Below are positions 25,315 to 39,196 of a stretch of 64,000 nucleotides of DNA, in pieces. Source of the stretch: Fuerstiella marisgermanici. GTDB taxonomy: Bacteria; Planctomycetota; Planctomycetia; Planctomycetales; Planctomycetaceae. The DNA lies in assembly GCF_001983935.1 (NCBI RefSeq), contig NZ_CP017641.1, positions 4,278,001 through 4,342,000 on the forward strand, read 5' to 3'. A program made the translations under genes and the position numbers. The notes under the pieces were generated by a model. It saw only the letters and a list, made by a program, of their open reading frames with translations. It was not told the DNA's origin and did not search any database. Position 1 is the stretch's first letter. Each line of letters begins with the position of its first letter.

Positions 25315-26355
25315 CTATTCCAGCAGTTTTGCCACCACCACAATGTGCTGGCCTTTAGGAACCGGAGCCACCCATGCCTGAGCCAGCACGACTCCATCCA
25401 GTGCGGCGACACACGGCCAGGGGTCAAGGTCAATGCGGTCAAAGTCGTGCAGCAGGCCCACTGTATCACCGCGTTTGACGGCGGTTCCGCATTCCACCAG
25501 CGGTTCGTAGTGGCCAGCAAACGGAGCGGCGGTAAAACAGTCTCGGTCGACCATTTCCAACTTCTGCTGAGTGCCCGCGCGATGATGGGCAATCGGTTCG
25601 ATCGTCCCGTGCAGCAGGTCACTATTGATGGCCGCCGCTAAGACGCCCTGACGACCATACTTCACGCCTTCTGGGTTCACGGATCGTCCCCAGCCAAGTT
25701 CGGTCCCCACTGTGATCTTGCCCAGTCGCTCGGCTTCGCTGGGCAGCAGGCCCGGAGTCACATTCTGGTAGACCATCAGCGACGGCGTGCCAAACCAACG
25801 TGCGGTTTGCTCGATCTTTTCGCCCAACACCGGGTCGTCGACCGGGTGGTAATTCGCGCAGATGGAAAACCGAGCGACGTCGCCTCCGGAATGCAGGTCC
25901 AGCACAATGTGCACTCGTGGCCAGATATACGTGCGGACAAACGCTGCAATCCGATGAGTAATTCCGGCCAGTGCCGGCGTGCTTCCAGCCCCGTCGACAA
26001 AAGCTCGATTCAGGTTGACGCCGTCTTCCTGACGACTTTCGCGCGTGCCGGAAAGAAACGCCGCCGGGTTCAGAACGGGAATCAGAATGATCCGCCCGCG
26101 CACGTCGGCGATGTTGATGTCGCGCATCAGGTGCTTTAGCGCCATCGGCCCTTCGTATTCGTTACCGTGATTCGAACCGAAGGACACCAGCCCCAGGCCG
26201 TCCTGAGTTTCAGGGCCGACAAACACGGTCAGCGGCAGCAGATGATCTCCCCAAATGCTGTCATGTTCCAAAGCCACCCAGTAATCCCGGCGGCCCGGTG
26301 AATCCAGGTCCAGTTGTTCAGGACGGACGGTCTTGCGTTCCATAGTTCTTCTCAT
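25315..26355 (-). CDS. M14-family succinylglutamate desuccinylase/aspartoacylase-like deacylase
   Basis: The 346-residue zinc-dependent amidohydrolase has ligands visible as H63 and E66 in GSNHGNEYEG and H155 in LDLHSGGD. The substrate-binding motif GVNLNRAF is at 112-119. A C-terminal beta domain with YEPLVECGTAVKRGDTVG is typical of the AspA/AstE-like branch. These enzymes remove an acyl group from an N-acyl amino acid or related amide. The ATG overlaps the stop of the MFS gene by 3 bases (ATGA), so it is translationally coupled as the last gene of the catabolic operon. It probably acts on a product of the imported compound; the substrate is unknown. Confidence 0.9.
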   Translation of the reverse strand: MRRTMERKTVRPEQLDLDSPGRRDYWVALEHDSIWGDHLLPLTVFVGPETQDGLGLVSFGSNHGNEYEGPMALKHLMRDINIADVRGRIILIPVLNPAAFLSGTRESRQEDGVNLNRAFVDGAGSTPALAGITHRIAAFVRTYIWPRVHIVLDLHSGGDVARFSICANYHPVDDPVLGEKIEQTARWFGTPSLMVYQNVTPGLLPSEAERLGKITVGTELGWGRSVNPEGVKYGRQGVLAAAINSDLLHGTIEPIAHHRAGTQQKLEMVDRDCFTAAPFAGHYEPLVECGTAVKRGDTVGLLHDFDRIDLDPWPCVAALDGVVLAQAWVAPVPKGQHIVVVAKLLE

Positions 26356-27707
26356 TCATCGGTTAAGCGGTCGGTGCAGTCCACCAGCAACCAGCAGGCT
26401 CCGGATGCAAGATACATTCCGGATAACAGCACGAACAGCGGGTTCCAGTCGGTGACAGACATGTCAATCCCGTCGACGACGGACGTCGTGGTAAACCAGT
26501 CCAGCACAACGCCGAACACAATCGGCATGCAGACACCTCCAATGGTACCTGCGGTATTGATAATGCTGAACACGGTCGCACTGAACCGACCTCCAAGATC
26601 CGTACAGGTGCCCCATGTTGTTGGCTGACTCCAGTCACTGAAGAACTTCGCCGCCATCAGCAGCCACGCTCCGGTCACACCATCAGACTGCATCACAACC
26701 AACGCCAACATGGCACAGCCGATGACCTTCCCCACAAAACCAACGCCACTGCGTGCCCAGCGCCGGTTGCCTGTGCGGCGAATGATCGTGTCATTCAACC
26801 AGCCACCGACAATGCCGCCCAGAGCACCGCCAAACAGCGGCAGACTAGCCAGCCAACCGGTCTGTTTGATGTCAAACTGATGAGCGACCAGGAACCATGT
26901 GCCAATCAGCCCCACAAAGACGACGTCTGAGCCAGCATCCAGAAACTGCTGCACCGTGAAGATTCGCAGGCTGCGATTCTGCAACGCCTTGCGCAAAGGT
27001 AGCACGGCACGATGGTCGACAGCAGTCGTTTTGGACACTGCACGACCGGCAATCAATTCTTCCTCGGCGGAATTGACGCGGGGATCGTGCACGGGCGAAT
27101 CGCGGAACAGCGCAAAGAACACAATCGCGTGAACCAGGCCCACCAGCCCGATCAGTGTGACAGATACTTGCCACCGCAGCCCGCAGACTCCCATCAGCAA
27201 CGTGCCCAGAATAATGGGCGACATCGCGCCGCCTGCTCGACCGAACGTCGTCGCGACCCACCCCTGCAGCACGGTTCGATGAGTGGCGGGAAACCACTGC
27301 TGGCTGATTTTTGTCAGAGCGGGGTAGCAGCCCGCTTGAGTCGCTCCGAACACCAGACGCCAGAATCCGAGCAGCATGATGTTGCTGGTATGAGCGATCC
27401 CCGCCACGGCAATGGACCACGCGGCGATGATTCCCGTGAGAAACCGGTGCGGCCCAAAACGATCAACAATGATGCCGCTGGGAATCTGACCGGCCGCGTA
27501 GGTGTAGTAGAACAAAGAAAACAGAACAGCAGCTTGAGTATTCGAAAACGAAAACTCGGTCTGCAACTTCGGGCCGATAATATTCCAGCTGTAGCGGTGC
27601 AGGTACAGCAGGAATGACGTACTGCACGCGAGAGCGAACACAGTCCAGCGAATTTTTGTCGCCGGTAATTCGGATGACTCGGTCGCGGTGTCGCCTGTTG
27701 GTGGCAC
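26352..27707 (-). CDS. MFS transporter (anion:cation symporter-like)
   Basis: The 451-residue protein has 12 predicted membrane helices. The first is WTVFALACSTSFLLYLHRYSWN, and the loop 2-3 motif reads IPSGIIVDRFGPHR (G-x-x-x-D-R-x-G). The RYSWN/SIxGP-like opening resembles the ACS family (hexuronate, galactonate and tartrate transporters). It lies 20 bases after the enolase-superfamily gene and overlaps the M14 gene, so the three form one operon. Uptake of a sugar acid or acylated acid for the dehydratase is inferred. Confidence 0.92.
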   Translation of the reverse strand: MPPTGDTATESSELPATKIRWTVFALACSTSFLLYLHRYSWNIIGPKLQTEFSFSNTQAAVLFSLFYYTYAAGQIPSGIIVDRFGPHRFLTGIIAAWSIAVAGIAHTSNIMLLGFWRLVFGATQAGCYPALTKISQQWFPATHRTVLQGWVATTFGRAGGAMSPIILGTLLMGVCGLRWQVSVTLIGLVGLVHAIVFFALFRDSPVHDPRVNSAEEELIAGRAVSKTTAVDHRAVLPLRKALQNRSLRIFTVQQFLDAGSDVVFVGLIGTWFLVAHQFDIKQTGWLASLPLFGGALGGIVGGWLNDTIIRRTGNRRWARSGVGFVGKVIGCAMLALVVMQSDGVTGAWLLMAAKFFSDWSQPTTWGTCTDLGGRFSATVFSIINTAGTIGGVCMPIVFGVVLDWFTTTSVVDGIDMSVTDWNPLFVLLSGMYLASGACWLLVDCTDRLTDE

Positions 27708-27727
27708 GGGCTGGCTTTCAGAAAACG

Positions 27728-28861
27728 TTACCGGAATTCGATCGGTTCCGGACAGAAGTGCTGCAATCGCTGCGGATCAATCTGAACGCCAAGTCCCGGC
27801 GTTGTCGGAATCTTTAAAGATCCCTCTGCATCCAACTGAAATGGTTCAGTTGTTAACTGATCGATGTAGGCGCACGGAGTCAGGTATTCGACGTGGGAGG
27901 CGTTCGGCAGGAAGGCCGAAATCTGCAGATCGGCGGCCAGGCCAATGGCGGTGTTCCAGCCATGCGGCACCACGGCGACGTTGTGGTCTGCGGCTATCTG
28001 AGCAATCCGACGGAATTCACTGAGGCCTCCGCACTTGGTGACGTCCGGCTGAATGATGTCGACCGCGTGGCGTTCCAGCCAGGGTTGAAAAGCCTGTCGC
28101 CGAGTCAGAACTTCGCCTCCGGAAATCGGGATCGGTGACACGCGGCTCAGTTCCACAAACCCGTCGATATCATCAGGGGGCAGAGCTTCTTCGAACCAGA
28201 CAATGCCATAGTCGGCAAGCATCCTGGCGGTGTTGCGGGCCCAATTTGTTCCATGAGGCCAGAATTGTTCGCTGCCGCCCGCGTCGACCATTAGTTCCAC
28301 ATCGTCGCCCACTGTCTTGCGAGCCGTCCGGACCAGCAACTCATCGAACGCTCGATCACGGCGACCGAACGGACGCCAGCCCATCTTTATGGCTCGAAAA
28401 CCGCGTTCGACCACGCTGTTCAGCGTCACCGCCAGAGCATCGGGTTCGTCAAACAAAATCGATCCGTAGGGCTTGATGCGGTCTCGATAATTGCCGCCCA
28501 ACAAACGTGACACCGGTTGACCGCACGCCTTTCCCATGATGTCCCACAGCGCAATGTCGATGCCGCTGATGGCATGCGTCACACTTCCGCCGCGGCCTTG
28601 CCAAAAGGTGGATTGATGCAGAACTTCAGACACGCGTTCGGGTTCGACCGCGGATTGTCCTTTCAAAAGAGGCCACAACAACTGCACTGCACCGGCCACA
28701 AGCTGACCAGATGTGAAGCAACTTCCGTAGCCGCAGATGTCCTGATCGGTGTGGACAACTACAAGCGTGTGCAGATCTTCCTGCGGTTCATGCCCCTGAG
28801 GCCAGCCACCGTCCACTGTCGCTCCGGTCAGCGGACAGACATCAATGCCAATAATTTTCAC
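27728..28861 (-). CDS. Enolase-superfamily dehydratase/racemase (mandelate racemase-like)
   Basis: The 377-residue protein has an N-terminal capping domain and a C-terminal barrel. Metal ligands are recognisable as D193 (MVDAGG), E224 or E225 (WFEEALPPDD) and E250 (ISGGEVL). H300 (VVPHGWNTAIG) with D273 (IQPDVTKCGG) forms the His-Asp base pair of the mandelate racemase group, and K159 is in AIKMGW. Members dehydrate or racemise sugar acids after taking a proton alpha to the carboxylate. The exact substrate is not clear (rhamnonate and galactarate relatives exist). It is the first gene of the operon with MFS and M14 genes, and its promoter faces the UPF0261 gene. Confidence 0.92.
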   Translation of the reverse strand: MKIIGIDVCPLTGATVDGGWPQGHEPQEDLHTLVVVHTDQDICGYGSCFTSGQLVAGAVQLLWPLLKGQSAVEPERVSEVLHQSTFWQGRGGSVTHAISGIDIALWDIMGKACGQPVSRLLGGNYRDRIKPYGSILFDEPDALAVTLNSVVERGFRAIKMGWRPFGRRDRAFDELLVRTARKTVGDDVELMVDAGGSEQFWPHGTNWARNTARMLADYGIVWFEEALPPDDIDGFVELSRVSPIPISGGEVLTRRQAFQPWLERHAVDIIQPDVTKCGGLSEFRRIAQIAADHNVAVVPHGWNTAIGLAADLQISAFLPNASHVEYLTPCAYIDQLTTEPFQLDAEGSLKIPTTPGLGVQIDPQRLQHFCPEPIEFR

Positions 28862-29297
28862 GGTCTGCCAATTCCTGGAATCAACCTCAAATGACGCGAC
28901 GACGTCGTGCCCAAACCCGCGTTTTTAACCAGCCACTCGGTGGTTGTCGAGTCGCCGAGAAGATCAGAGCGCGCTGGATTGCTCGACGGCCTGAATGTGC
29001 GGAACGGGTTGACGGACCGCTAACGAGTAAGAAACTGTGCGCTGTTCAGGAATCCTTCATCACCGCGACGACGGACGCAAAGTAACGTGCTTGCTTCGGT
29101 CAGGTGCGAGCGTTCCACAATTCCAACGGCATTGAAGTCACACGCGGTCCGGAAGCTGTAACGCTCGAAGTCGGCTGAACGTCATTGATTTCTTCGGATT
29201 GCGTTTCGATTCGATTCCGACAAACATGCAGCACTTACTCGAACAGCTGCGAGCGTTTCCGTTTTCATTGTTACTTAAACTTTGGAGTAATTGTTGT
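28862..29297. other. Divergent intergenic region, dehydratase operon / UPF0261
   Basis: 436 bases without a convincing gene. The right third (about 29191-29297) is the segment duplicated at 24963. A short frame from ATG 29226 begins MQHLLEQLRAF and reads in frame into UPF0261; its codons differ from the duplicate partly by silent changes. I looked for a -24/-12 promoter and found only weak GG-N10-GC matches. Confidence 0.6.
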
Positions 29298-30497
29298 ATG
29301 TCGGGACTTGTTTATGCAGTCGCCACAATGGATACGAAAGGCGAGGAGCTCGCTTATGTCAAAGATTGCCTGGCCGCAGGCGGCGCTGATGTGACGATGG
29401 TCGATGTGGGAACCGCCGGACCACCGACCGTGACTCCCGACGTTTCGCGAAGCCAGGTGGTGGGCGCGGATAGCGGCGGCCAGACGTACACAGATCGAGG
29501 CGAAGCGGTTGCTGCAATGAGTCAGTCGTTGACGTCGTTCCTGCTGCAAGAACATGCAGCAGGACGAGTGGCCGGGGTCATCGGCATTGGAGGCAGCGGT
29601 GGCACGGCGCTCATCTCGGCAGCTATGCGAGCCCTTCCTGTGGGGTTGCCGAAGATGCTGGTATCAACCGTCGCCAGCGGAAACACGGCTCCTTATATCG
29701 ACTGCAGCGACATCACGATGATGTATTCCGTTGTCGACGTGGCCGGATTAAACGTGGTTTCCCGAAAAGTGCTGGCCAATGCGGCTCACGCGATGGCAGG
29801 CATGGTTCAGCATTCGTCGCAGGTGCAACCATCGCGACCGGCTCTGGGCATGACGATGTTCGGCGTGACGACACCGTGCGTCACACGCGTTCGCGAATCA
29901 CTCGAAGCACAGGGCTTCGACGCTCTCGTCTTTCACGCAACCGGCAGCGGTGGCCGAGCGATGGAGAAGCTTGTCGACGGCGGATTGATCGGTGGGATAC
30001 TGGACATCACAACCACTGAAGTGGCTGATGAAATTGCGGGCGGAGTTTTCGCCGCTGGGCCCAAACGCTTCGATACCATTATCGAACGTCAGGTCCCCTG
30101 TGTAATGAGTCTCGGCGCGTGCGACATGGTCAACTTCGGCGCACCGGACACGGTTCCCGAAAAGTACAAGGACCGCTTATTTCATGTCCACAACCAGCAA
30201 GTCACACTGATGCGGACGACGCCGGACGAAAACCGGCAGATCGCAAATTGGATTGCGGACAAGGTGAATCGGTCGACATCCCCGATCACCATCCTGATCC
30301 CCGAAGGCGGCGTTTCGATGCTGGACGCGCCAGGCCAGGCCTTCCACGATCCTGAAGCCAATGCCGCACTGTTTGACGAATTGGAAGCTCGCGTTGAACA
30401 AACCGAGCAACGAAAAATCGTCCGCCTGCCACACCACATCAACGACGATGCCTTTGCAGACAGCCTGGTGGAAACGTTTTTGGGCCTGCAGAAATAG
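29298..30497 (+). CDS. Tm-1-like / UPF0261 nucleotide-binding domain protein
   Basis: The 399-residue protein belongs to UPF0261, the family of the N-terminal half of tomato Tm-1. The diagnostic start is MSGLVYAVATMDTKGEEL. A Gly-rich loop GIGGSGGT (96-103), TVASGNTAPYIDCSDITMMYSVVDVAGLN-type sequence, and the C-terminal HINDDAFADSLVE tail complete it. Crystal work on Tm-1 showed ATP binding by this domain; the natural reaction in bacteria is unknown. ATG 29298 is chosen because family members begin there; an in-frame start at 29199 would add a leader. The partner TIM-barrel domain of Tm-1 is encoded separately at 34306. Confidence 0.92.
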   Translation: MSGLVYAVATMDTKGEELAYVKDCLAAGGADVTMVDVGTAGPPTVTPDVSRSQVVGADSGGQTYTDRGEAVAAMSQSLTSFLLQEHAAGRVAGVIGIGGSGGTALISAAMRALPVGLPKMLVSTVASGNTAPYIDCSDITMMYSVVDVAGLNVVSRKVLANAAHAMAGMVQHSSQVQPSRPALGMTMFGVTTPCVTRVRESLEAQGFDALVFHATGSGGRAMEKLVDGGLIGGILDITTTEVADEIAGGVFAAGPKRFDTIIERQVPCVMSLGACDMVNFGAPDTVPEKYKDRLFHVHNQQVTLMRTTPDENRQIANWIADKVNRSTSPITILIPEGGVSMLDAPGQAFHDPEANAALFDELEARVEQTEQRKIVRLPHHINDDAFADSLVETFLGLQK

Positions 30498-30570
30498 TGG
30501 CGATTTGCCCGCCACAAGCCACTAAGAGCGAATGGCGAGCGCTGTCGCAAATGGTATCGTGAAGGCGGCG

Positions 30571-31014
30571 TCAATCGGTCAGGTCAAACTTAAACTCGTT
30601 CTTCGACTCATCCGGATCAACGGTCGCGGTCAGTCCAGACATAGACGTGTCGCCATACTTGCCCGGTATTGTAGAAGGTTCCGATTTGGCCCCATCTGTG
30701 AAGCCCGGCATTCCAGCGACAGTATCGGGCACGTAGTTCAAAGCCACTTTGTAAGTTCCGACCACAGCACCGTCCCCTGGCTCACGAGTCTGCAGTTCAA
30801 AATTGCCTTCTGCGTCGGTCGTTCCTTCCGCAATCTGACCAGTACCGTCTTGCGGAATAAATGCGACGGAGATCTTTGGCATTGGAGTTCCGTTGTAGCT
30901 GACAACCCCCGAAACCGGTACCGTTTGTGGAGCACCACTCACACCGCCACAGCCAACAATTAGAACCGAGACGCCAGCCAACAGACACAGCTTATTCAAA
31001 CATGCAACTAACAT
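30571..31014 (-). CDS. Transthyretin-like / carboxypeptidase-regulatory-like lipoprotein
   Basis: The 147-residue lipoprotein has signal MLVACLNKLCLLAGVSVLIVG before GCGG and a single Ig/transthyretin-like domain (VSGVVSYNGTPMPKISVAF ... TTDAEGNFELQT). A good ribosome-binding site, GAGGAG, lies 8 bases upstream of ATG 31014. Planctomycetes often place such lipoproteins after DUF1559 genes, as here (DUF1559 at 31183, same strand). The function is unknown; the beta domain may bind a partner in the periplasm. A sister lipoprotein occurs in the mirrored position at 36386. Confidence 0.82.
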   Translation of the reverse strand: MLVACLNKLCLLAGVSVLIVGCGGVSGAPQTVPVSGVVSYNGTPMPKISVAFIPQDGTGQIAEGTTDAEGNFELQTREPGDGAVVGTYKVALNYVPDTVAGMPGFTDGAKSEPSTIPGKYGDTSMSGLTATVDPDESKNEFKFDLTD

Positions 31015-31182
31015 CCGCGTTTCTCCTCTATCAAGATGAATAGCACGATACTTAGAACTCTGACCGTAAAGTGACGAAGCCTGGAAACAAACGTTACCAG
31101 GCTTCGTGTTCACTACGAGACTCACGCATTTCGCGAGGACAGGACTGGAGGGGTCGGGTGGCTAGTACCGACGAAGTGGTGT

Positions 31183-32154
31183 TTAGAATTCACCCAGAAT
31201 TTCGCCAGCGCTGATCGTCGCGGCACCTCGGTAAACGCCGATATCAATATTCTCGCTGACAAACCGAGCGCTGCCATCTCCCATTGTAAACTGGCCACCA
31301 CCAGTATGTTTGCTGGCGAAGGAATAGTTGTTCGGCCAGTCGCCAATGTTCTTTGGCCGTCGCAGAACAGCGTTCAACGGAATCGCGCAAGTAGCGGTGA
31401 CCGCGTTGGGGTTGTACCACCAATTCCACTGGCTCCAGCCGGGCATCGCTTCACCGATGATAAACGTGTTGGTTGTGCCGTCGGTGATGTCTCTCATTCG
31501 AGTTGGAGCGTTGGTGTTTGCCTGATTGGAACACAAGACACCGTTTCCTTCGTTCAGCCCATTGGTGCTGCCGCTGTTTCGGCCACCCAGCGATGAAACA
31601 GGATTCCACGCTGCAATCCCCCATCCCCAGTTGCTTCCTGCACACGCTTTGTAGTTCGTAACCCCCCAGGTGCCTGGAGGATCGACGTTCACATCCGAAC
31701 GGTTCCCAAGACGCCCATTGTTGTTTTCGTTATCAGATGGACACAGGTATCCGGGGATCACCGTATTCGCCGCGACTTGATTTTGAAGAATTGCCGGCGT
31801 CGTCCCCTGCAGTCCCACATTAAAATCAATGCTTTGATAAAGATTGCCCTGGTCAATGAACGGAAGAATCATCTGCAGCCAGCTCTTGCCCGTATTGGCG
31901 ATGGCAGGTCCGCCACCGCCCGCGCCCGGCATCGTCCGCCAGGCATAGTTGATCGGAAAGCAACGAAACGTGTCGTGATAGTTATGAAACGCCAGCCCTA
32001 GCTGTTTCATGTTGTTCTTGCACTGCGTTCGCCGAGCGGCTTCGCGAGCCTGCTGAACGGCTGGCAACAACAGTGCGATCAGGATCGCAATAATGGCGAT
32101 CACCACAAGCAATTCGATCAGCGTGAATCCACGTCTACCTAAGCGATGCAACAT
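31183..32154 (-). CDS. DUF1559 prepilin-like protein (left copy)
   Basis: The 323-residue protein starts [18 protein letters not shown], a type IV prepilin leader with a long hydrophobic helix and the planctomycete [15 protein letters not shown] segment. It ends with the H-x9-DG motif ([12 protein letters not shown]). DUF1559 proteins are large paralogue families in planctomycetes, thought to be surface or pseudopilus-like; a role in substrate binding is only proposed. ATG 32154 is the correct start; the frame runs to 32562 through the sigma-54 regulator gene and is rejected there. It lies 172 bases after the regulator's stop, on the same strand. Confidence 0.93.
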
Positions 32155-32326
32155 TGGCTCGACTCCCCGAAAAAGGACGAATGGCAGAAACGTTCCCGGA
32201 AATTCAAAGAACAACTGCGATCGACGCAACGCTCGATTCAATCGCCGGGCTATGCAGACCGTCTCCAATCGTACCAGGGGAATTGCGGCCTTAGCAAGTA
32301 ATCGGGAAAACAGGTGTAGGACAACC

Positions 32327-34150
32327 CTACCTGTCGCGCGAAGAATTCTCGGCTTCTCGAAGCCAGCGATATAGCGTTCGGCGCGTGACCTGCAGATCCT
32401 TGGCGGCCTGCGATTTGTTGCCACGCGCTTTTTGCACTGCGGTGACAGCTCGCTGATGGTTGTGCGAAGGTGAAAGGTGGCGCGTTGCTGACTTTGTTCG
32501 ATCCTCGGACCATGGTTCGAAAGACCAGCCTGCCAAAGTGCTGCCGTCTTCCAGAATCGCACAGCGGTGAATCACCTGTTCCAGCTCGCGAACATTGCCC
32601 GGCCAGTCATGCTGCATTAGCTTCCGTTCGAAGTCTGCCGACAGGCCGGTAATGTCGCGGTTCAAGCGTCCGCGCAGGTCCGACAGTATCGCTTCGACCA
32701 GCAACGGCATGTCTTCCGGCCGTTCGCTAAGTCTCGGCAGCTGAATGTTGATTGCACACAGCCGATAGAACAGGTCACTGCGGAACTCGCCCGCCTCAAC
32801 AAGAGAACTCAACGGACGATTGGATGCCGTCAATATTCTGACGTCGACAGGAACAGTTAATTCCCCGCCCACTCGAGTGACTTCGCGCTGCTGCAGAACT
32901 CGTAACAACGCGACCTGCCCGCGTGTGCTGAGGTCCGCAATCTCATCCAGAAACAAGGTGCCACCGTGAGCCAGTTCGAACTTTCCTGGCCGCTGTCGTT
33001 CTGCTCCCGTGAACGCGCCTCGTTCGTGCCCGAACAGTTCGCTTTCCAGCAGCGTGTCGGGAATCGCTCCGCAGTTAAGCGTCACAAACGGATGGTTAGC
33101 TCGGGGACTGAGTCGATGCAGCAGTCCCGCAACCAACTCCTTGCCCGTTCCGGATTCTCCTTCAATGCAGACGGTCACATCCTGAGCGGCCACTCGTTGT
33201 ACAACATCAAACACGCGTAACATCGCGGGGCTGCCACCGATAATTCCGCCGAATGCACCTGGTGCGTCACTCCGGTGCCGCATGGCCATTCCCTTAAACC
33301 GTCGCAACGTTGCATTCACGATGTCGCGCACTGGAAGCCGTTCGAAGACAGACCCGCCAGCGAACCCCTGAATGGAACTGTGTCGCAAGACTTCGTTTAA
33401 GTCCTCGGGCGTGACGATGGGGCCACCGAACGCCAGCTTCACGCAGTTTGGCCGACTAACTGCAGCTTCGGAAAGTTGGTTCAATCGAGCGATCGCCTGA
33501 TGCAGCTCATCGTGTTTCGTGCGCACGTCGCCGCTCGCACGAGTCAGGCCGATGTCCAGGATCAGAGCATCGACGTCCGCGCGCATGAAGTGTTCGACCT
33601 CCGTGGTACCCAACGCAAAACCGAATGCGACCAGCCCGAGCTCCTTCGCCATAGACAGCATCTCAGCTTCGCTCGCGGCCCCCAGCCCCTCAGCTTCCAA
33701 AGCCTGGCGGAACTGACCGTCTATGAATCCGACGGCGGGCCAGTTAACGACCCCCGCCACACCCATTTTCTTCAAACGTCGCAGCCGCGATTCCAATGGC
33801 TCCGATGGGTCCGACGCGAGAACGCCCGCGACCACCGGTAGTCCAGCCGCGCGAGGCAGGACATGCCGCTGCAGCAGAGCTTCGGTCTGAGCGTTAGCGT
33901 TTCCGAACGGCAGGAAGGAAGCGAGCGAGCCGGTGCCCTGAGTTCGGTAGGTGCCAGCATTCAAAACCATGAGCGCATCAGCACCCGATTCCACGGCACA
34001 GCGCGCGACGAGTCCGGAACCCGGCACAACCATCAGAAGTGGACGTTCCGTGAAGGCGCCAGCCAGAGTTCGGCGCAGTGCCTGAGCCTCTTGAGAAGCT
34101 TCGATTGTGGATACCTGTGTCACACGCCAAGTATACACTCGGGTAACCAC
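32327..34150 (-). CDS. Sigma-54 activator with N-terminal PEP-hydrolase-type TIM-barrel sensor
   Basis: About 607 residues in three parts. Residues 20-290 are a TIM barrel of the phosphoenolpyruvate-hydrolase/Tm-1 C-terminal family, clearly homologous to the protein at 34306. Residues 300-530 are the AAA+ sigma-54 domain: Walker A GESGTGKE (331-338), GAFTGA loop (378-383), Walker [10 protein letters not shown]. Residues 565-605 form a Fis-type helix-turn-helix ([20 protein letters not shown]). Two His of the enzyme barrel (H182, H225 there) are D199 and F241 here, so a ligand-sensing rather than catalytic barrel is inferred. The start is uncertain: GTG 34150, or GTG 34138 or 34123. It is divergent from its likely target. 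Confidence 0.92.
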
Positions 34151-34184
34151 GACACAAGCCGAACTTCCTTAGGACTCGCCAGTT

Positions 34185-34214
34185 AGTTGCATAACGTGAT
34201 ACAGTTAAACAACT
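34185..34214. promoter_or_regulatory. Candidate enhancer (UAS) for the sigma-54 activator
   Basis: AGTTGCATAAC and GTTAAACAACT form an inverted repeat matching at 9 of 11 positions around an 8-base spacer. It lies in the gap between the divergent regulator and TIM-barrel genes, about 30 bases upstream of the -24 element. Confidence 0.45.
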
Positions 34215-34244
34215 TATGTTTCATTTTGCGTGGTCGCAAACTTG

Positions 34245-34260
34245 TGGCACACAACATGCA
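34245..34260 (+). promoter_or_regulatory. Sigma-54 (-24/-12) promoter
   Basis: TGGCACACAACATGCA matches the RpoN consensus TGGCACRNNNNTTGCW at every defined position except one T. GG and GC have the required 10-base spacing. Transcription would start near 34272, about 34 bases before the ATG of the TIM-barrel gene and directly downstream of its activator gene. Confidence 0.85.
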
Positions 34261-34305
34261 AAGTGCAGTCCCGCCAATCAGTCACTATCCACACAGGTTT
34301 TTTCA

Positions 34306-35190
34306 ATGCAACATCAACGCCAGACCCTGTTGAACAAATTTCGCGCAAAAGTAGAGGCGCAGCAACCGATCGTCGGTGCCGGTGCAGGGACCGGACTGTC
34401 GGCGAAGTGCGCCGAGCAGGGCGGAGTGGACCTGATCGTAATTTACAATTCCGGACGCTTTCGCATGGCCGGTCGAGGCTCTCTTGCGGGCCTGATGGCT
34501 TACGGAAATGCGAATGAGATCGTCCGTGAGATGGCTCCGGAAGTATTGACCGCCGTCGAACATACGCCTGTCCTGGCAGGCGTGTGCGGCACAGACCCTT
34601 TTCTGCTTCGCGACCGTTTTCTTCAGGATCTGAAGGGGCTTGGATTCGCCGGCATTCAGAACTTCCCAACCGTCGGTCTGATTGATGGAGTCTTTCGAGC
34701 CAATCTCGAAGAGACCGGAATGAGCTTCAGCCTTGAGATCGATCTCATCGCGGCAGCCAATGAACTCGATCTCCTGACGACTCCATACGCCTTCGACCCA
34801 AAGCAGGCCGGCTTGATGACTGAGGCGGGTGCGGATGTGGTTGTGGCGCACATGGGACTAACCACGACCGGCATGATTGGTGCCCAGACAGCGCGAACGC
34901 TGGATGCGTGCGTCGATGAAGTCCGCGCGATTGCTGAAGCGTGCCGAGAAGTCCGCGAAGACGTATTTGTGCTTTGCCACGGCGGCCCAATCGCATCTCC
35001 GGAAGACGCCCAATACATCCTGGAACGTATTCCTGAAGTCGATGGTTTTTACGGTGCCAGTTCAATGGAACGGCTACCGACTGAAACAGCAATCACGGAA
35101 CAGGTCAAAGAGTTCACAGAATTGAAGCTGGGTGGCGCAAGCGATCCGCGAGCAACAAACGCACTCGGCAATGGCGCGAAGGTGTCGTAG
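34306..35190 (+). CDS. PEP-hydrolase family TIM barrel (Tm-1 C-terminal domain homologue)
   Basis: The 294-residue protein is full length for the TIM-barrel signal-transduction/phosphoenolpyruvate hydrolase family. Landmarks are [51 protein letters not shown] and [16 protein letters not shown]. His residues at 182 and 225 lie at strand ends of the barrel and may be catalytic. The true reaction is not well established; the family name comes from a reported phosphoenolpyruvate hydrolase. The ATG at 34306 is chosen because an earlier ATG at 34216 lies upstream of the sigma-54 promoter. In Tm-1 this domain is fused to UPF0261, here encoded at 29298. Confidence 0.92.
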
Positions 35191-35390
35191 TCACAGCCGC
35201 CCGGCTTGTGACCAATGTCGTATGCGCGGGCTCAAAACCCAACCTTGAATTTACAACTGGATTGCCAACGCTGATCCGTGGGCAGATCGCCTTGAAATGC
35301 CGCAACATGGCACCCCCTGATGTCCAGGGAATCACGCTCGGTCTTCTGGTTTTAACGTTTTTCGTTTTGTCTTTTAAAAAGGAAACTCAG

Positions 35391-36383
35391 ATGCGGTGCA
35401 AACCCAAAAAGTCTCGAGGTTTTACTCTTATCGAGTTGTTAGTCGTGATTGCGATCATCGCGATCCTCATTGCGTTGTTATTGCCCGCCGTACAGCAGGC
35501 ACGCGAAGCGGCTCGCCGAACTCAGTGCAAGAATAATCTGAAGCAGCTTGCCCTGGCGCTGCACAACTACGAAAGCACACACAGTGTGTTTCCGATGGGG
35601 TGGGGACACCACATCGAAAACAGACTGGTGGGAACAGGTCGAGGCAATTGCTTCAATACGAACCACGGCACTGGCAATCGCATTGGCCGTAGCCCGTGGA
35701 CTGTCATGATTTTGCCTTTCATCGAAATGAATGCGCTCTATCAACAGTACGATGCCAACTATGCGATCAACTGGGCGTTGAACGCAAGCTGGGCCGGTGG
35801 TCGAGAAAACGAAGACGTGTGGCTGGCCCCCGTCGTCGCGTTCCGGTGTCCTTCTGACCCTCGAAACTCCAGCCAGGACAACCTCTTGAACTACATGGGG
35901 GTTTCCGGCGGCGGTGAATACACGTGCTGGAATCTCGGTGACCTGGACAGCATTAACGTCCGCGGGTTGGACAATGACGGGATCCTCTACCTGGGTTCCA
36001 GAACTAAGATTGGCCACATCACGGATGGCACGTCCAACACTTTCATGGTCGGTGAAACAAAGTACCCACGTTCACTCGGTCGTGACCCCGGCGGCGACAA
36101 CTATTTAGGTTGGGCGTCGGCCGGCATGGCGTGGAACTCAGTTCCACAAACAGCCATCTGTGCAACCGCTCGCGACCAAATCAACACGTTTTATCCGTCG
36201 ATGGCGCCCGGCAACACACCGTCGCACGCTCATATGCAGCGTGTATTCGGTAGTGAACACATTGGTGGTTGCCACTTCGCGATGGCTGATGGTTCCGTGC
36301 ACTTCGCCTCAGAAAACATGGACCTCACCATCTATCACAACCTCGGAATGCGAAACGACGGTCAAGTCATTGGAGAATGGTAA
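35391..36383 (+). CDS. DUF1559 prepilin-like protein (right copy)
   Basis: The 330-residue protein begins [19 protein letters not shown], followed by the [15 protein letters not shown] segment, and ends with a family tail reading HIGGCHFAMADG. AAAAAGGAAA lies upstream of ATG 35391 as a weak ribosome-binding site. The frame extends back to 35208 but the leader must start at 35391. It follows the TIM-barrel gene by 200 bases on the same strand and is followed by a lipoprotein gene, repeating in mirror image the order on the other side of the sigma-54 promoter. Export through type IV pilus-like machinery with leader cleavage after Gly is inferred. Confidence 0.93.
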   Translation: MRCKPKKSRGFTLIELLVVIAIIAILIALLLPAVQQAREAARRTQCKNNLKQLALALHNYESTHSVFPMGWGHHIENRLVGTGRGNCFNTNHGTGNRIGRSPWTVMILPFIEMNALYQQYDANYAINWALNASWAGGRENEDVWLAPVVAFRCPSDPRNSSQDNLLNYMGVSGGGEYTCWNLGDLDSINVRGLDNDGILYLGSRTKIGHITDGTSNTFMVGETKYPRSLGRDPGGDNYLGWASAGMAWNSVPQTAICATARDQINTFYPSMAPGNTPSHAHMQRVFGSEHIGGCHFAMADGSVHFASENMDLTIYHNLGMRNDGQVIGEW

Positions 36384-36385
36384 TC

Positions 36386-36805
36386 GTGAACTTTAAAGTA
36401 ACAGCAATGTCAGTACGTCATGCACACGTGGGACTTGTCGCAGCAATCGTGCTCGGCATGTTCTCCGGGTGCGGAGGACCGGACGGCCCCGAGCGTGCGG
36501 AAATTCACGGACGGGTGACCTTTAACGGCGAGCCCGTGCCTGTCGGCCAAATCGAATATCGACCGAACGTTGAAAAAGGCGGCTCCGGACCACAGTCGCT
36601 GCTCTTCATCAAGGACGGATACTACGAATCAGCTGGAAAGGGTCCCGTTTTGGGCCCCCACACAGTTAAGATCACAGGCTACACCGGCATTCCAAAGCCG
36701 TTTCTGGATCAGGGCGAAGAGCTGTTCCCCACCCACAAGGATGAGGTCGAAATCACTTCTGGAGACCAGGAAGTTAATTACGACTTCCCGATCGCCGGCG
36801 AGTGA
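36386..36805 (+). CDS. Transthyretin-like lipoprotein (right copy)
   Basis: A lipoprotein of about 139 residues: signal LVAAIVLGMFS before GCGG, then a beta domain (IHGRVTFNGEPVPVGQIEY ... GPHTVKITGYTGIP). Its layout matches the lipoprotein at 30571, which has VSGVVSYNGTPMP at the same place. The start is uncertain: GTG 36386 with GGAG about 10 bases upstream is chosen; ATG 36377 overlaps the DUF1559 stop and ATG 36407 is also possible. It is almost certainly co-transcribed with the DUF1559 gene. The function is unknown. Confidence 0.78.
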   Translation: MNFKVTAMSVRHAHVGLVAAIVLGMFSGCGGPDGPERAEIHGRVTFNGEPVPVGQIEYRPNVEKGGSGPQSLLFIKDGYYESAGKGPVLGPHTVKITGYTGIPKPFLDQGEELFPTHKDEVEITSGDQEVNYDFPIAGE

Positions 36806-36958: not shown

Positions 36959-37402
36959 ATGAACAAGAAGTATATCGTTCGGCTGAGCGAGGAAGAACGG
37001 CAGACGTGCCGAGATGTGATTAAGAAGCTCACGGGGACTTCGCAGAAAGTTCGTCGCGCTCAGATTCTCCTGAAGGCAGACGCAGATGGTCCTGCCTGGA
37101 CGGATGAGAAGATTGCTGATGCTTTCAATTGCAGAGTGCAGACCGTCGAGAACATCCGCAAACGTCTTGTGACGGAAGGATTCGAGCGTGCGTTCGAAAG
37201 AAAGAAACGGGAAACACCGCCGACTCCACCGCTGCTCGACGGAAAAGGCGAAGCGAAACTGATTTCAATGCGACTTGGTAACCCGCCCGCCGGTTATGGA
37301 AAGTGGACGCTTCGATTGCTGGCGGACGAACTGGTGGCTCTTGAGGTTGTCGATTCGATCAGTCGCGAAACGGTCCGCAAGACGCTTAAAAAAACGGGAT
37401 GA
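36959..37402 (+). CDS. IS630 transposase, N-terminal part (orfA)
   Basis: The 147-residue frame carries the helix-turn-helix DNA-binding half of an IS630 transposase (ADAFNCRVQTVENIRKRLV, then ISRETVRKTLKK). AAGGAGGTGA lies just before the ATG, an unusually perfect ribosome-binding site for this window. It ends at a TGA overlapping the ATG of orfB by 4 bases. A run of seven A (37388-37394) precedes the stop. A -1 shift there reads LKKNGMTKRM, which matches the unbroken sequence of relatives, so frameshifting or transcript slippage making a fused enzyme is likely. Confidence 0.9.
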   Translation: MNKKYIVRLSEEERQTCRDVIKKLTGTSQKVRRAQILLKADADGPAWTDEKIADAFNCRVQTVENIRKRLVTEGFERAFERKKRETPPTPPLLDGKGEAKLISMRLGNPPAGYGKWTLRLLADELVALEVVDSISRETVRKTLKKTG

Positions 37403-38094
37403 CGAAGCGGATGATTGAGTACTGGGTGATTCCACCGGAAGCGGACGCAGAGTTCGTTGCCAACATGGAAGAAGTTCTGGACGTGTACGAACGGCGTTAT
37501 GATCCGAACTATCCTGTGGTTTGCATGGATGAGCAACCGGTTCAGTTACTCAAAGAAACGCGTGTTCCCATCAAAGCGACGAAAACTCATGGCAAGCGTG
37601 TTGACTATGAGTACGAACGTAACGGCACAGCCAGCATTTTTATGTTTGCTGAGCCGCTGGCAGGATATCGGCAGGCCACCGCACGTCCCCAGCGCACGAA
37701 AGTTGACTGGGCTTTGGAAGTGGCGAATCTGCTCGACACCCGATATGCGGACTGCGAATGGATCACATTGGTGATGGACAATCTGAACACACATACGAAA
37801 GGTGCGTTCTACGAAGCATTCCCGCCCGAGCAGGCGCGAAGTTACATTCAACGAATCGAGTTCTGTTACACACCGAAGCACGGCAGCTGGCTCAACGTCG
37901 CTGAGTGCGAACTAAGTTGCATGAGCAGTCAGTGTCTCAATGGTCGCAGGATCGGCGACCTGGAGATCCTTCAATCCGAAATCGGCGCGTGGTCACAGAA
38001 GACGACCGCCAAACAGCGGGATGTCGACTGGCAATACAAAATCGACGACGCACGCCAAAAACTAAAACGACTCTACCCAATTATTAAGACTTGA
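37399..38094 (+). CDS. IS630 transposase, DDE catalytic part (orfB)
   Basis: The 231-residue frame has the complete DDE triad of IS630 transposases: Asp in VVCMDEQPVQLL, Asp in TLVMDNLNTHTK, and Glu in GSWLNVAECELS. The last of these lies in the usual W-L-N-x-x-E context. The C-terminus (QYKIDDARQKLKRLYP) is typical. Alone it lacks the DNA-binding half, so activity should need fusion with orfA through the A7 run, or coupling at the ATGA overlap. No damage is visible. Confidence 0.92.
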   Translation: MTKRMIEYWVIPPEADAEFVANMEEVLDVYERRYDPNYPVVCMDEQPVQLLKETRVPIKATKTHGKRVDYEYERNGTASIFMFAEPLAGYRQATARPQRTKVDWALEVANLLDTRYADCEWITLVMDNLNTHTKGAFYEAFPPEQARSYIQRIEFCYTPKHGSWLNVAECELSCMSSQCLNGRRIGDLEILQSEIGAWSQKTTAKQRDVDWQYKIDDARQKLKRLYPIIKT

Positions 38095-38272: not shown

Positions 38273-39196
38273 ATGCGGCTCATCATCTTTCTATGTGCGT
38301 CCATCGCGTGCCAAAATGTGTTTGCTCAGGCGACTCCCAGCGTGAAGTCGTCACCGGCCAGCAAGACGAACTCTGCAGCCGCAGAGCTGTTTGCCGATGA
38401 AAATCTGACGGCATGGCTTGTGATCTTTACGGATGCGAAGAAACGCACTCCTGAGCAACGTGCGAAGATGGTGGCGGATCTGGGCTTCAAGAAAGTCGGA
38501 TTCGAAGCGTTCGAAAAGTACGTTCCGATTCTTGATGAGCAGATGGAAGAAAATGAAAAGCACGGATTGGAAACCACCTCTGTCTATTTCGTGATGAAGA
38601 CAGAAACACCAAGTGAAGAACCTCACGTAAAAGCCATTTTTGATGTTCTGAAGAAGCGAAAGGCCACGCCGGAAATTTGGGCCATGTTCCCGCGAGGCGC
38701 ATTCAACGATGCGCCGCAGGAGCAACGGGTCGAAAAGATGATCGTGGCCTTTAGTGAACTTGCCGAACACTGCAAAGCCGCAGGCTGCAAACTGGCTCTT
38801 TACAACTACGGATCATGGTTTGGAGCGGTCGACGTACAGCTGGCCATTATCGACGGCGTCAAGGAACGCACGGGCATCAAGATCGGCACAGTGTTGAACT
38901 TCCACCGAGGTCACCAGCACATGCCTGACTTCCCGGAAGCTCTTCAAAAGATGCTGCCTCACCTGGTGATGGTGAACCTGAACGGCATGAACCAAAAGGA
39001 CGCCGGTAAGACCGGCGGCGGCGCCAAAATCCTGCCACTCGGCGACGGCGACGCGGAATTGACGATGATGCGTCAATTGGCTGAATCCGGATATCGTGGC
39101 CCCATTGGAATCATTGACCACCAGAGCGGTGTTGACGCGGAAGTGCAGCTGAAGGCGAACCTGAAAGGCCTGGAAGAGCTTCGCAAGAAGCTGTGA
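38273..39196 (+). CDS. Secreted sugar phosphate isomerase/epimerase-like TIM barrel
   Basis: The 307-residue protein has a signal peptide (MRLIIFLCASIACQNVFAQ) and a xylose-isomerase-like barrel. FKKVGFEAFEKYVP, LALYNYGSWFG, GTVLNFHRGHQH, VNLNGMN and PIGIIDHQSG are strand ends carrying the His, Asn and Asp that would bind a metal. Planctomycetes have many exported members of this family; substrates are mostly unknown. It is not obviously in an operon. The 168 bases before it contain a short CATCTG triplicate near 38182 and nothing else of note. Confidence 0.82.
   Translation: MRLIIFLCASIACQNVFAQATPSVKSSPASKTNSAAAELFADENLTAWLVIFTDAKKRTPEQRAKMVADLGFKKVGFEAFEKYVPILDEQMEENEKHGLETTSVYFVMKTETPSEEPHVKAIFDVLKKRKATPEIWAMFPRGAFNDAPQEQRVEKMIVAFSELAEHCKAAGCKLALYNYGSWFGAVDVQLAIIDGVKERTGIKIGTVLNFHRGHQHMPDFPEALQKMLPHLVMVNLNGMNQKDAGKTGGGAKILPLGDGDAELTMMRQLAESGYRGPIGIIDHQSGVDAEVQLKANLKGLEELRKKL

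Follow-up and report, generated by a model that had tools for sequence, protein, structure and literature searches.

In the planctomycete Fuerstiella marisgermanici, the halves of the tomato virus-resistance protein Tm-1 are encoded by two distinct genes on the 64,000-nucleotide stretch analyzed here (the window; bases 4278001 to 4342000 of an 8.92-Mb single-contig genome). Between them lies the gene for a sigma-54 activator, which carries at its N terminus a paralog of one half, the triosephosphate isomerase (TIM)-barrel family PF09370. We consider it likely that the locus is a regulator-enzyme module in which the PF09370-like sensor controls the TIM-barrel and UPF0261 genes through sigma-54. 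The architecture of this regulator-enzyme pair is known, and the pair is conserved yet optional.

The UPF0261 gene (29298 to 30497, plus strand) corresponds to the N-terminal half of Tm-1. Its product matches both the N-terminal (PF06792, 2e-61) and the C-terminal (PF23189, 5e-95) profile, and its closest solved structure is tomato Tm-1 itself (3wry, E = 4.1e-112). The counterpart of the C-terminal half (34306 to 35190, plus strand) encodes a stand-alone "phosphoenolpyruvate (PEP) hydrolase-like" TIM-barrel protein, called the enzyme here by presumption, that matches PF09370 (2.6e-128; 427.3 bits against a curated cutoff of 33.8) and, by sequence, structure 2p10 (1.9e-110). A first-pass annotation of this DNA had proposed that the Tm-1 halves are split, and the profile and structure-sequence matches bear it out: the two products are separate chains, not a Tm-1-type fusion, and about 3.8 kb lies between their genes. 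The same annotation had counted the sensor as a third TIM-barrel member of the module. The sensor and the enzyme are indeed both PF09370 proteins, but the UPF0261 protein has no PF09370 match, and thus there are two PF09370 domains, not three. In the whole genome, PF09370 genes number two, the enzyme and the activator, and there is one UPF0261 gene.

The activator gene (32327 to 34123, minus strand) is head to head with the TIM gene, and its probable start is a GTG at 34123 rather than the opening of the open reading frame (ORF) at 34150. The sensor domain (33290 to 34051, minus strand; residues 34 to 287 of a 607-amino-acid ORF) matches PF09370 at 5.6e-75, with 252.4 bits against the same cutoff. 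It aligns with the enzyme at 32% identity over 280 positions (E = 4e-43), and the sequence blocks that had been quoted as common to the two appear in the pairwise alignment. Next come a Sigma54_activat AAA+ domain (PF00158, 2.4e-67), AAA_lid_14 (PF25601), and a Fis-type helix-turn-helix (HTH_8, PF02954, 8.1e-7). With its AAA+ domain, Walker A motif (GESGTGK), GAFTGA motif, and C-terminal Fis-type helix-turn-helix, the protein has the makeup of a sigma-54 enhancer-binding protein, and the genome contains one match to a sigma-54 gene (PF04552, 3.2e-63). The activator sits between the UPF0261 and TIM genes as described at first pass, but not alone, as DUF1559 pseudopilin-like and small lipoprotein-like genes (within 30571 to 32562, minus strand) also intervene between UPF0261 and the activator.

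Recurrence and promoter sites of the module

Two checks on the idea of a conserved system had been set beforehand, one on the sensor profile and one on uniqueness to this genome. The sensor matched PF09370, and the full-length activator model fits the fold of 2p10_E (TMt 0.83, with 268 columns aligned and 35% identity in the matched part; model pTM 0.51, with domain placement uncertain). Moreover, the arrangement recurs in other genomes. In a family sample of 100 genomes, PF09370 was found in 64 and PF06792 in 66, and UPF0261 was present in 64 of the 64 PF09370-bearing genomes and in 2 of the other 36. Named species genomes were then searched with an alignment of the sensor domain, which gave 20 loci from Planctomycetota, Verrucomicrobiota, Fibrobacterota, Desulfovibrionaceae, and one member of the Myxococcota. 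Loci and genomes carry the L and G numbers of this analysis. Four loci were left out of the count, three because they are the same record as or a near copy of another (L043, L058, and L060, of L035, L036, and L059, respectively) and one at a contig end (L062); with the window and five family loci added, 22 informative class-I loci resulted. All 22 have a PF09370 partner gene. The partner is a canonical TIM gene, no more than about 6 kb from the activator, in 19 of them and a divergent, profile-confirmed PF09370 gene in the three Fibrobacterota loci (L051 to L053). UPF0261 is present in 19 of 22 (about 8 kb off in L035) and is absent from the stretch at L045, L047, and L061, of which L047 belongs to Singulisphaera acidiphila DSM 18658. 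The activator is head to head with the first gene of the module in 19 of 22 and codirectional in Fibrobacterota. Eight more activator loci were fetched from a phylum sample, six of them new (L101 is L056, and L102 is L055); other entries of that sample were left out because their coordinates match loci already in the set. Among the new loci, L099 and L100 have both TIM and UPF0261 genes. An apparent in-frame UPF0261-TIM fusion at L046 was rejected, as its two alignments fall in different frames.

The intergenic region between the activator and the TIM gene contains a candidate sigma-54 -24/-12 element, TGGCACACAACATGCA (34245 to 34260, plus strand), that matches 11 of 12 consensus positions and lies 61 bp before the TIM start. 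Sites were scored against the consensus TGGCAYRNNNNTTGCW, at 12 informative positions with GG and GC obligatory and a threshold of 9, and this element is one of just three in the whole 64 kb, on both strands, that score at least 11. Within 300 bp upstream of the head gene, a site reaching 9 was found at 15 of 22 regulator loci and at 1 of 40 controls (Fisher 2.5e-8), where the controls are family-genome rows without a regulator at the locus (39 distinct, as L024 and L041 coincide), the regions of three regulator loci (L051 to L053) lie upstream of the activator itself, and the statistic, like those on neighbors and distances below, ignores the relatedness of loci. Mononucleotide shuffles of the same regions reached 9 in 12% of cases, and the reverse orientation did so at 3 of 22. 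The family loci that reach 9 are the window, L033, L034, L035, and L036. A second control set of 40 loci, drawn from this family and from elsewhere in the phylum, gave 14 of 21 versus 2 of 40 within 300 bp (4.6e-7) and 18 of 21 versus 6 of 40 within 600 bp (8.8e-8); here the head gene for the window and L033 was taken to be TIM and not UPF0261, as the activator lies in between, and L051 to L053 were out.

Individual loci fit the same pattern. L059 scores 12 before UPF0261, and L100, scored after the rule was fixed, has an 11 upstream of UPF0261. L099, likewise scored afterward, has a 5 before UPF0261 and an 11 before its ThuA-like head gene. At L054 to L057, sites scoring 9, 10, 9, and 10 are located 448 to 504 bp before UPF0261, and ORFs place a cupin gene ahead of UPF0261 (Pfam matches for L054 and L057); these head-gene corrections, and that for L099, were made after the data were seen. 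We note separately that L079/L135 (G066) has an 11/12 site 144 bp before a UPF0261-TIM pair and no PF09370 activator at the locus. A different sigma-54 activator may have taken over there.

Two candidate activator-binding half-sites of a post hoc motif lie near the start of the activator gene, GTATCCAC (34107 to 34114, minus strand), just inside the gene, and GTATACAC (34131 to 34138, plus strand). An unbiased dyad search found GTATA-N4-TATAC in 3 of 22 regions, against a 95% point of 2 in mononucleotide shuffles, too small an excess to convince.

Origin and residues of the sensor

The first-pass annotation had suggested that the regulator took its sensor fold from its own enzyme, which as a local event is not supported by the tree. 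In a tree of 99 domains (without the split activator of L036, L041, identical domains, and nine further loci), the 21 class-I sensors cluster together (99/99), as do the 68 enzymes (97/65). The sensors are thus a clade apart, the split between regulator and enzyme is old, and recent local duplication of the enzyme is ruled out. That tree joined two rhizobial/Azospirillum class-II regulators to the enzymes (98/86), as if the barrel had been captured twice independently. Two captures were not upheld by a second tree, with long rows removed and enzymes thinned to 30, in which a single branch (100/95, with a long-branch warning) separates the 22 regulators used from the other domains.

The sensors have kept the fold of the enzyme and lost much of what looks like its active site. 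Twenty-five positions are at least 97% conserved in the 68 enzymes and kept in at most 10% of the 21 sensors. Every one of the 21 sensors has L for Y47, W for F120, and F or Y for H225, while Q118 and Y249 occur in none, and K34 and Y161 are each kept in one; in the two class-II regulators, H225 is replaced by E and Y161 is kept. The enzyme model (pTM 0.81; TMt to 2p10 of 0.86 to 0.87) has strands of at least three residues at 22 to 27, 43 to 46, 89 to 93, 116 to 119, 178 to 182, 221 to 225, and 247 to 249. It places G26, Y47, Q118, F120, H225, and Y249 at or beside the C-terminal ends of barrel strands, where the active sites of TIM barrels sit. Conversely, 35 strongly conserved positions are common to enzymes and sensors, including G226, G227, G250, S252, E255, and R256. 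A glycine/serine cradle in such barrels usually holds phosphate or carboxylate. As the cradle is kept and the polar residues are lost, the sensor most likely binds without turnover, and on its sequence it is a probable ligand-binding pseudo-enzyme.

A sensor with a retained fold and missing active-site-type residues would also be expected if it worked by contact. The sensor might dock on the TIM enzyme or on UPF0261 in mixed barrel oligomers, such that the activator is held inactive and is freed when those proteins are busy or scarce. Sensor and enzyme distances do covary over 18 loci (r = 0.64, permutation P = 2e-4), as for contact, but shared inheritance explains the covariation equally well and is expected of a coinherited pair. 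Moreover, G226, G227, G250, and S252 are kept in the sensors and would be needless for contact alone. We regard docking as unlikely. That the sensor has stayed catalytically active, as a bifunctional trigger enzyme, is very improbable, for although the fold and 35 conserved positions are shared, the replacement of H225 and Y47 and the loss of Q118 extend to all 21 sensors.

Family membership, gene order, recurrence, promoter-site enrichment, the residue losses, and the fold of the sensor are observations; for ligand sensing, the direction of control, and the chemistry we infer the following. The TIM-barrel protein and UPF0261, which are fused in plants, would act jointly on one metabolite, and the divergent activator would use an old PF09370 paralog as its sensor. 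The sensor pocket, minus the polar residues at strand ends, most likely binds the substrate of the enzyme, its product, or a close analog. With ligand bound, the AAA+ domain would activate sigma-54 RNA polymerase at a -24/-12 promoter in the DNA between the activator and the divergent module. In F. marisgermanici, the promoter at 34245 to 34260 would serve the TIM gene and not UPF0261; in other genomes, it would serve what looks like an operon that comprises UPF0261 and TIM and to which cupin, ThuA, dehydrogenase, Gfo/Idh, or xylose-isomerase-like genes often belong.

A number of results weigh against a module of this kind. A complete activator is present in only 5 of the 64 PF09370-bearing family genomes (F. 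marisgermanici included) and a broken one in a sixth; the activator is therefore an optional add-on. In the sixth (L036 in G021, the same record as L058; 14035 to 15890), the activator gene runs over two frames, possibly through a sequencing error, while the TIM and UPF0261 genes are undamaged and a -24/-12-like site (10/12) still lies upstream of UPF0261. Among the new phylum-sample loci, whose activators in L103 to L106 are 35 to 37% identical to that of the window, L103 and L106 have a small divergent PF09370 gene only, L104 has no TIM or UPF0261 gene within the 16 kb examined, and L105, a 5-kb contig, is uninformative. Of the 22 class-I activators, 17 (the broken L036 among them) have an exact GAFTGA, but L034 has GAFTDA and L061 has GAFTSA, and a pattern search gave no GAFTGA-like string in L051 to L053, where the PF00158 match of L051 is strong. 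No -24/-12 site was found upstream of UPF0261 in the window or in L033, 7 of 22 loci had no site scoring 9 in the first test (L032 of the same family among them), and 6 of the 40 controls in the second set do carry one within 600 bp. As to binding sites, at least two GTATACAC-like sites occur at 6 of 22 regulator loci and at 0 of 40 others, but the motif was picked by eye and tested post hoc, and an unbiased k-mer search of the upstream regions found nothing above dinucleotide shuffles.

Neighboring genes and the state of the locus in F. marisgermanici

Gene order downstream of the TIM gene raises the possibility that the module is eroding in this genome. A DUF1559 pseudopilin-like gene (35208 to 36383, plus strand; PF07596, 2.8e-54) follows in the same order as in L033 and L035. 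Next is a small gene (36377 to 36805, plus strand), lipoprotein-like by eye and with no Pfam match, that has relatives at the equivalent place in those loci (40% and 42% identity). Then comes a transposase pair of two overlapping ORFs (36959 to 38094, plus strand; HTH_32/HTH_23 and DDE_3), which we take to be an IS630-like arrangement, inside the apparent TIM operon. L033 and L035 keep in its place a large gene (1151 and 1137 amino acids, dehydrogenase-like in L035), followed by their copies of a xylose-isomerase-like TIM barrel that in the window lies at 38273 to 39196 (plus strand; PF01261, 7.8e-8; 64% identity to both copies) and is possibly an operon remnant. Thus, a former TIM-DUF1559-lipoprotein-large protein-isomerase operon could have lost its large member around the insertion and perhaps left the regulator with no functioning pathway to serve. 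The genome indeed has no full-length relative of the L035 large protein (best match, 37% over 324 residues), and UPF0261 and TIM are not in one operon. Nevertheless, the ORFs of UPF0261, TIM, and the activator are undamaged and have their motifs, the promoter site is intact, and we think erosion to the point of disuse improbable.

The other flank had been offered as a clue to function. A sugar-acid-type operon (25315 to 28861) of AstE-like, major facilitator superfamily, and enolase-superfamily genes runs divergent to UPF0261, and its best NCBIfam matches include a D-galactonate transporter and galactonate dehydratase, all below curated cutoffs. The operon might even be the real target of the activator, with TIM and UPF0261 mere neighbors. 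None of its genes, however, had a match in the flanks searched at relatives' loci (mostly about 8 to 10 kb, shorter at contig ends), so the operon says little about the module, and 28862 to 29297 holds no -24/-12 site scoring at least 6 toward it. We therefore reject the operon both as a clue and, with little hesitation, as the target.

The neighbors that do recur, on modest statistics, are instead ThuA (by Pfam in L034, L036, L044, L049, and L061), glucose/sorbosone dehydrogenase or DUF7133, Gfo/Idh/MocA, xylose-isomerase-like, and cupin genes. We counted neighbors up to 8 kb away on the strand of the TIM gene, leaving out L047 and any query that came from the locus itself or its near copy, with L051 to L053 anchored at the activator's own TIM domain, the best TIM match there (all three scored negative). 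At least one of ThuA, dehydrogenase, xylose-isomerase-like, or Gfo/Idh genes was found at 15 of 23 regulator loci versus 9 of 40 without a regulator (Fisher 0.001), a comparison in which the queries came from regulator loci, favoring those loci, and P values are uncorrected for the number of tests. Taken alone, ThuA gave 8/23 versus 5/40 (P = 0.04), xylose-isomerase-like genes 3/23 versus 0/40 (0.045), and Gfo/Idh genes 6/23 versus 3/40 (0.051); the dehydrogenase was not significant (5/23 versus 5/40, 0.27). The sole counted neighbor in the window is the xylose-isomerase-like gene at 38273.

A small, very divergent PF09370 protein adjoins the regulator or UPF0261 in several lineages (L051, 10753 to 11763; L052, 3484 to 4323; L053, 11086 to 11883; L059, 7111 to 7869; L064, 5239 to 5868; L070, 7049 to 7639). 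TIM genes also occur in 16 plasmid regions from other bacteria and one archaeon, 14 of which have an annotated UPF0261 (Tm-1-like) gene in the incomplete PLSDB gene tables. Their surroundings include varied transporters and, in several, TetR, GntR, or IclR regulators, and such variety indicates no single pathway. On a Pectobacterium plasmid (L095, 6697 to 8777), conjugation genes surround a UPF0261-TIM pair that has a TetR-type regulator of its own, which suggests that the pair works as a self-contained unit. A purine/ureide link (HpxZ, AllG) was seen at one Azospirillum locus only.

The main value of the module is as a route to the substrate of the PF09370/UPF0261 family. The regulator, which seems to include a dead copy of the enzyme, is placed at the promoter of the enzyme gene, and ligands found on the sensor or with a reporter would become substrate candidates. 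More speculatively, and with doubts of our own, the regulator pocket could be a frozen copy of the enzyme active site, such that knowing what the activator binds would reveal the substrate for the family as a whole, including plant Tm-1; the neighbors would then point to an intracellular step after sugar oxidation by secreted dehydrogenases and ThuA/Gfo-Idh/xylose-isomerase-like enzymes.

Comparison with known systems

The architecture of the activator is not new. PMC5167734 prints PF09370 (TIM-br_sig_trns) as an N-terminal domain of sigma-54 activators, the same architecture as in the window. In open-license literature, we found nothing that ties such activators to TIM/UPF0261 genes, -24/-12 sites, or active-site loss, and nothing on the reaction of UPF0261/PF09370, the targets of the regulator, or its ligand. 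What is new here is the recurrence counts, the promoter-site enrichment, and an old sensor clade with residue losses, and together they make this protein a clear candidate for the use of a pseudo-enzyme as the sensor of a sigma-54 activator.

The genes at 29298 and 34306 resemble tomato Tm-1 and plant Tm-1-like proteins in their UPF0261 and TIM-barrel domains, which are fused in plants and, according to PMC5028733, generally separate in bacteria. The same paper already reports the separation, co-occurrence, and coevolution of the halves in bacteria, with UPF0261 in 491 of 504 bacterial genomes that had the TIM-barrel gene, and places UPF0261 and PF09370 proteins in bacteria, archaea, fungi, and plants. 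The families are thus widespread and in tomato became a virus resistance gene; likeness to Tm-1 does not imply an antiviral role. In fungi, PMC6867892 lists a UPF0261 gene among brown-rot-specific late-upregulated genes, beside glucosidases and glyoxylate cycle genes, a possible hint at the fungal role of the family. The excerpts of PMC3162934, PMC6867892, and PMC8508112 give no function, and the text of PMC12316311 does not contain the terms PF09370, phosphoenolpyruvate hydrolase, or UPF0261. Mll9387 of Mesorhizobium loti (2p10) matches the enzyme by sequence and the activator model by fold. It is titled a putative phosphonopyruvate hydrolase, the PEP/phosphonopyruvate hydrolase name rests on that structure title, and no assay paper for 2p10 was found in open-license literature.

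Enzyme folds have been reused as sensors elsewhere, as in ROK repressors and sugar kinases, MocR-GabR and aminotransferases, and BzdR and shikimate kinase. The folds and output domains of those regulators differ from those of the PF09370 activator. Closer are the class-II regulators of plasmid pNGR234a (L070, 11631 to 13460) and Azospirillum (L064, 5850 to 7631, annotated just as a "phosphoenolpyruvate hydrolase family protein"), which likewise join a PF09370 sensor to AAA+ and HTH_8 domains near UPF0261 and TIM genes. Their AAA+ matches, however, are much weaker (2.8e-21 and 1.1e-14, respectively), and no GAFTGA-like string was found in them. Thus, these two may be activators that no longer use sigma-54, and the activator of F. 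marisgermanici differs from them in having both a strong AAA+ match and an exact GAFTGA motif.

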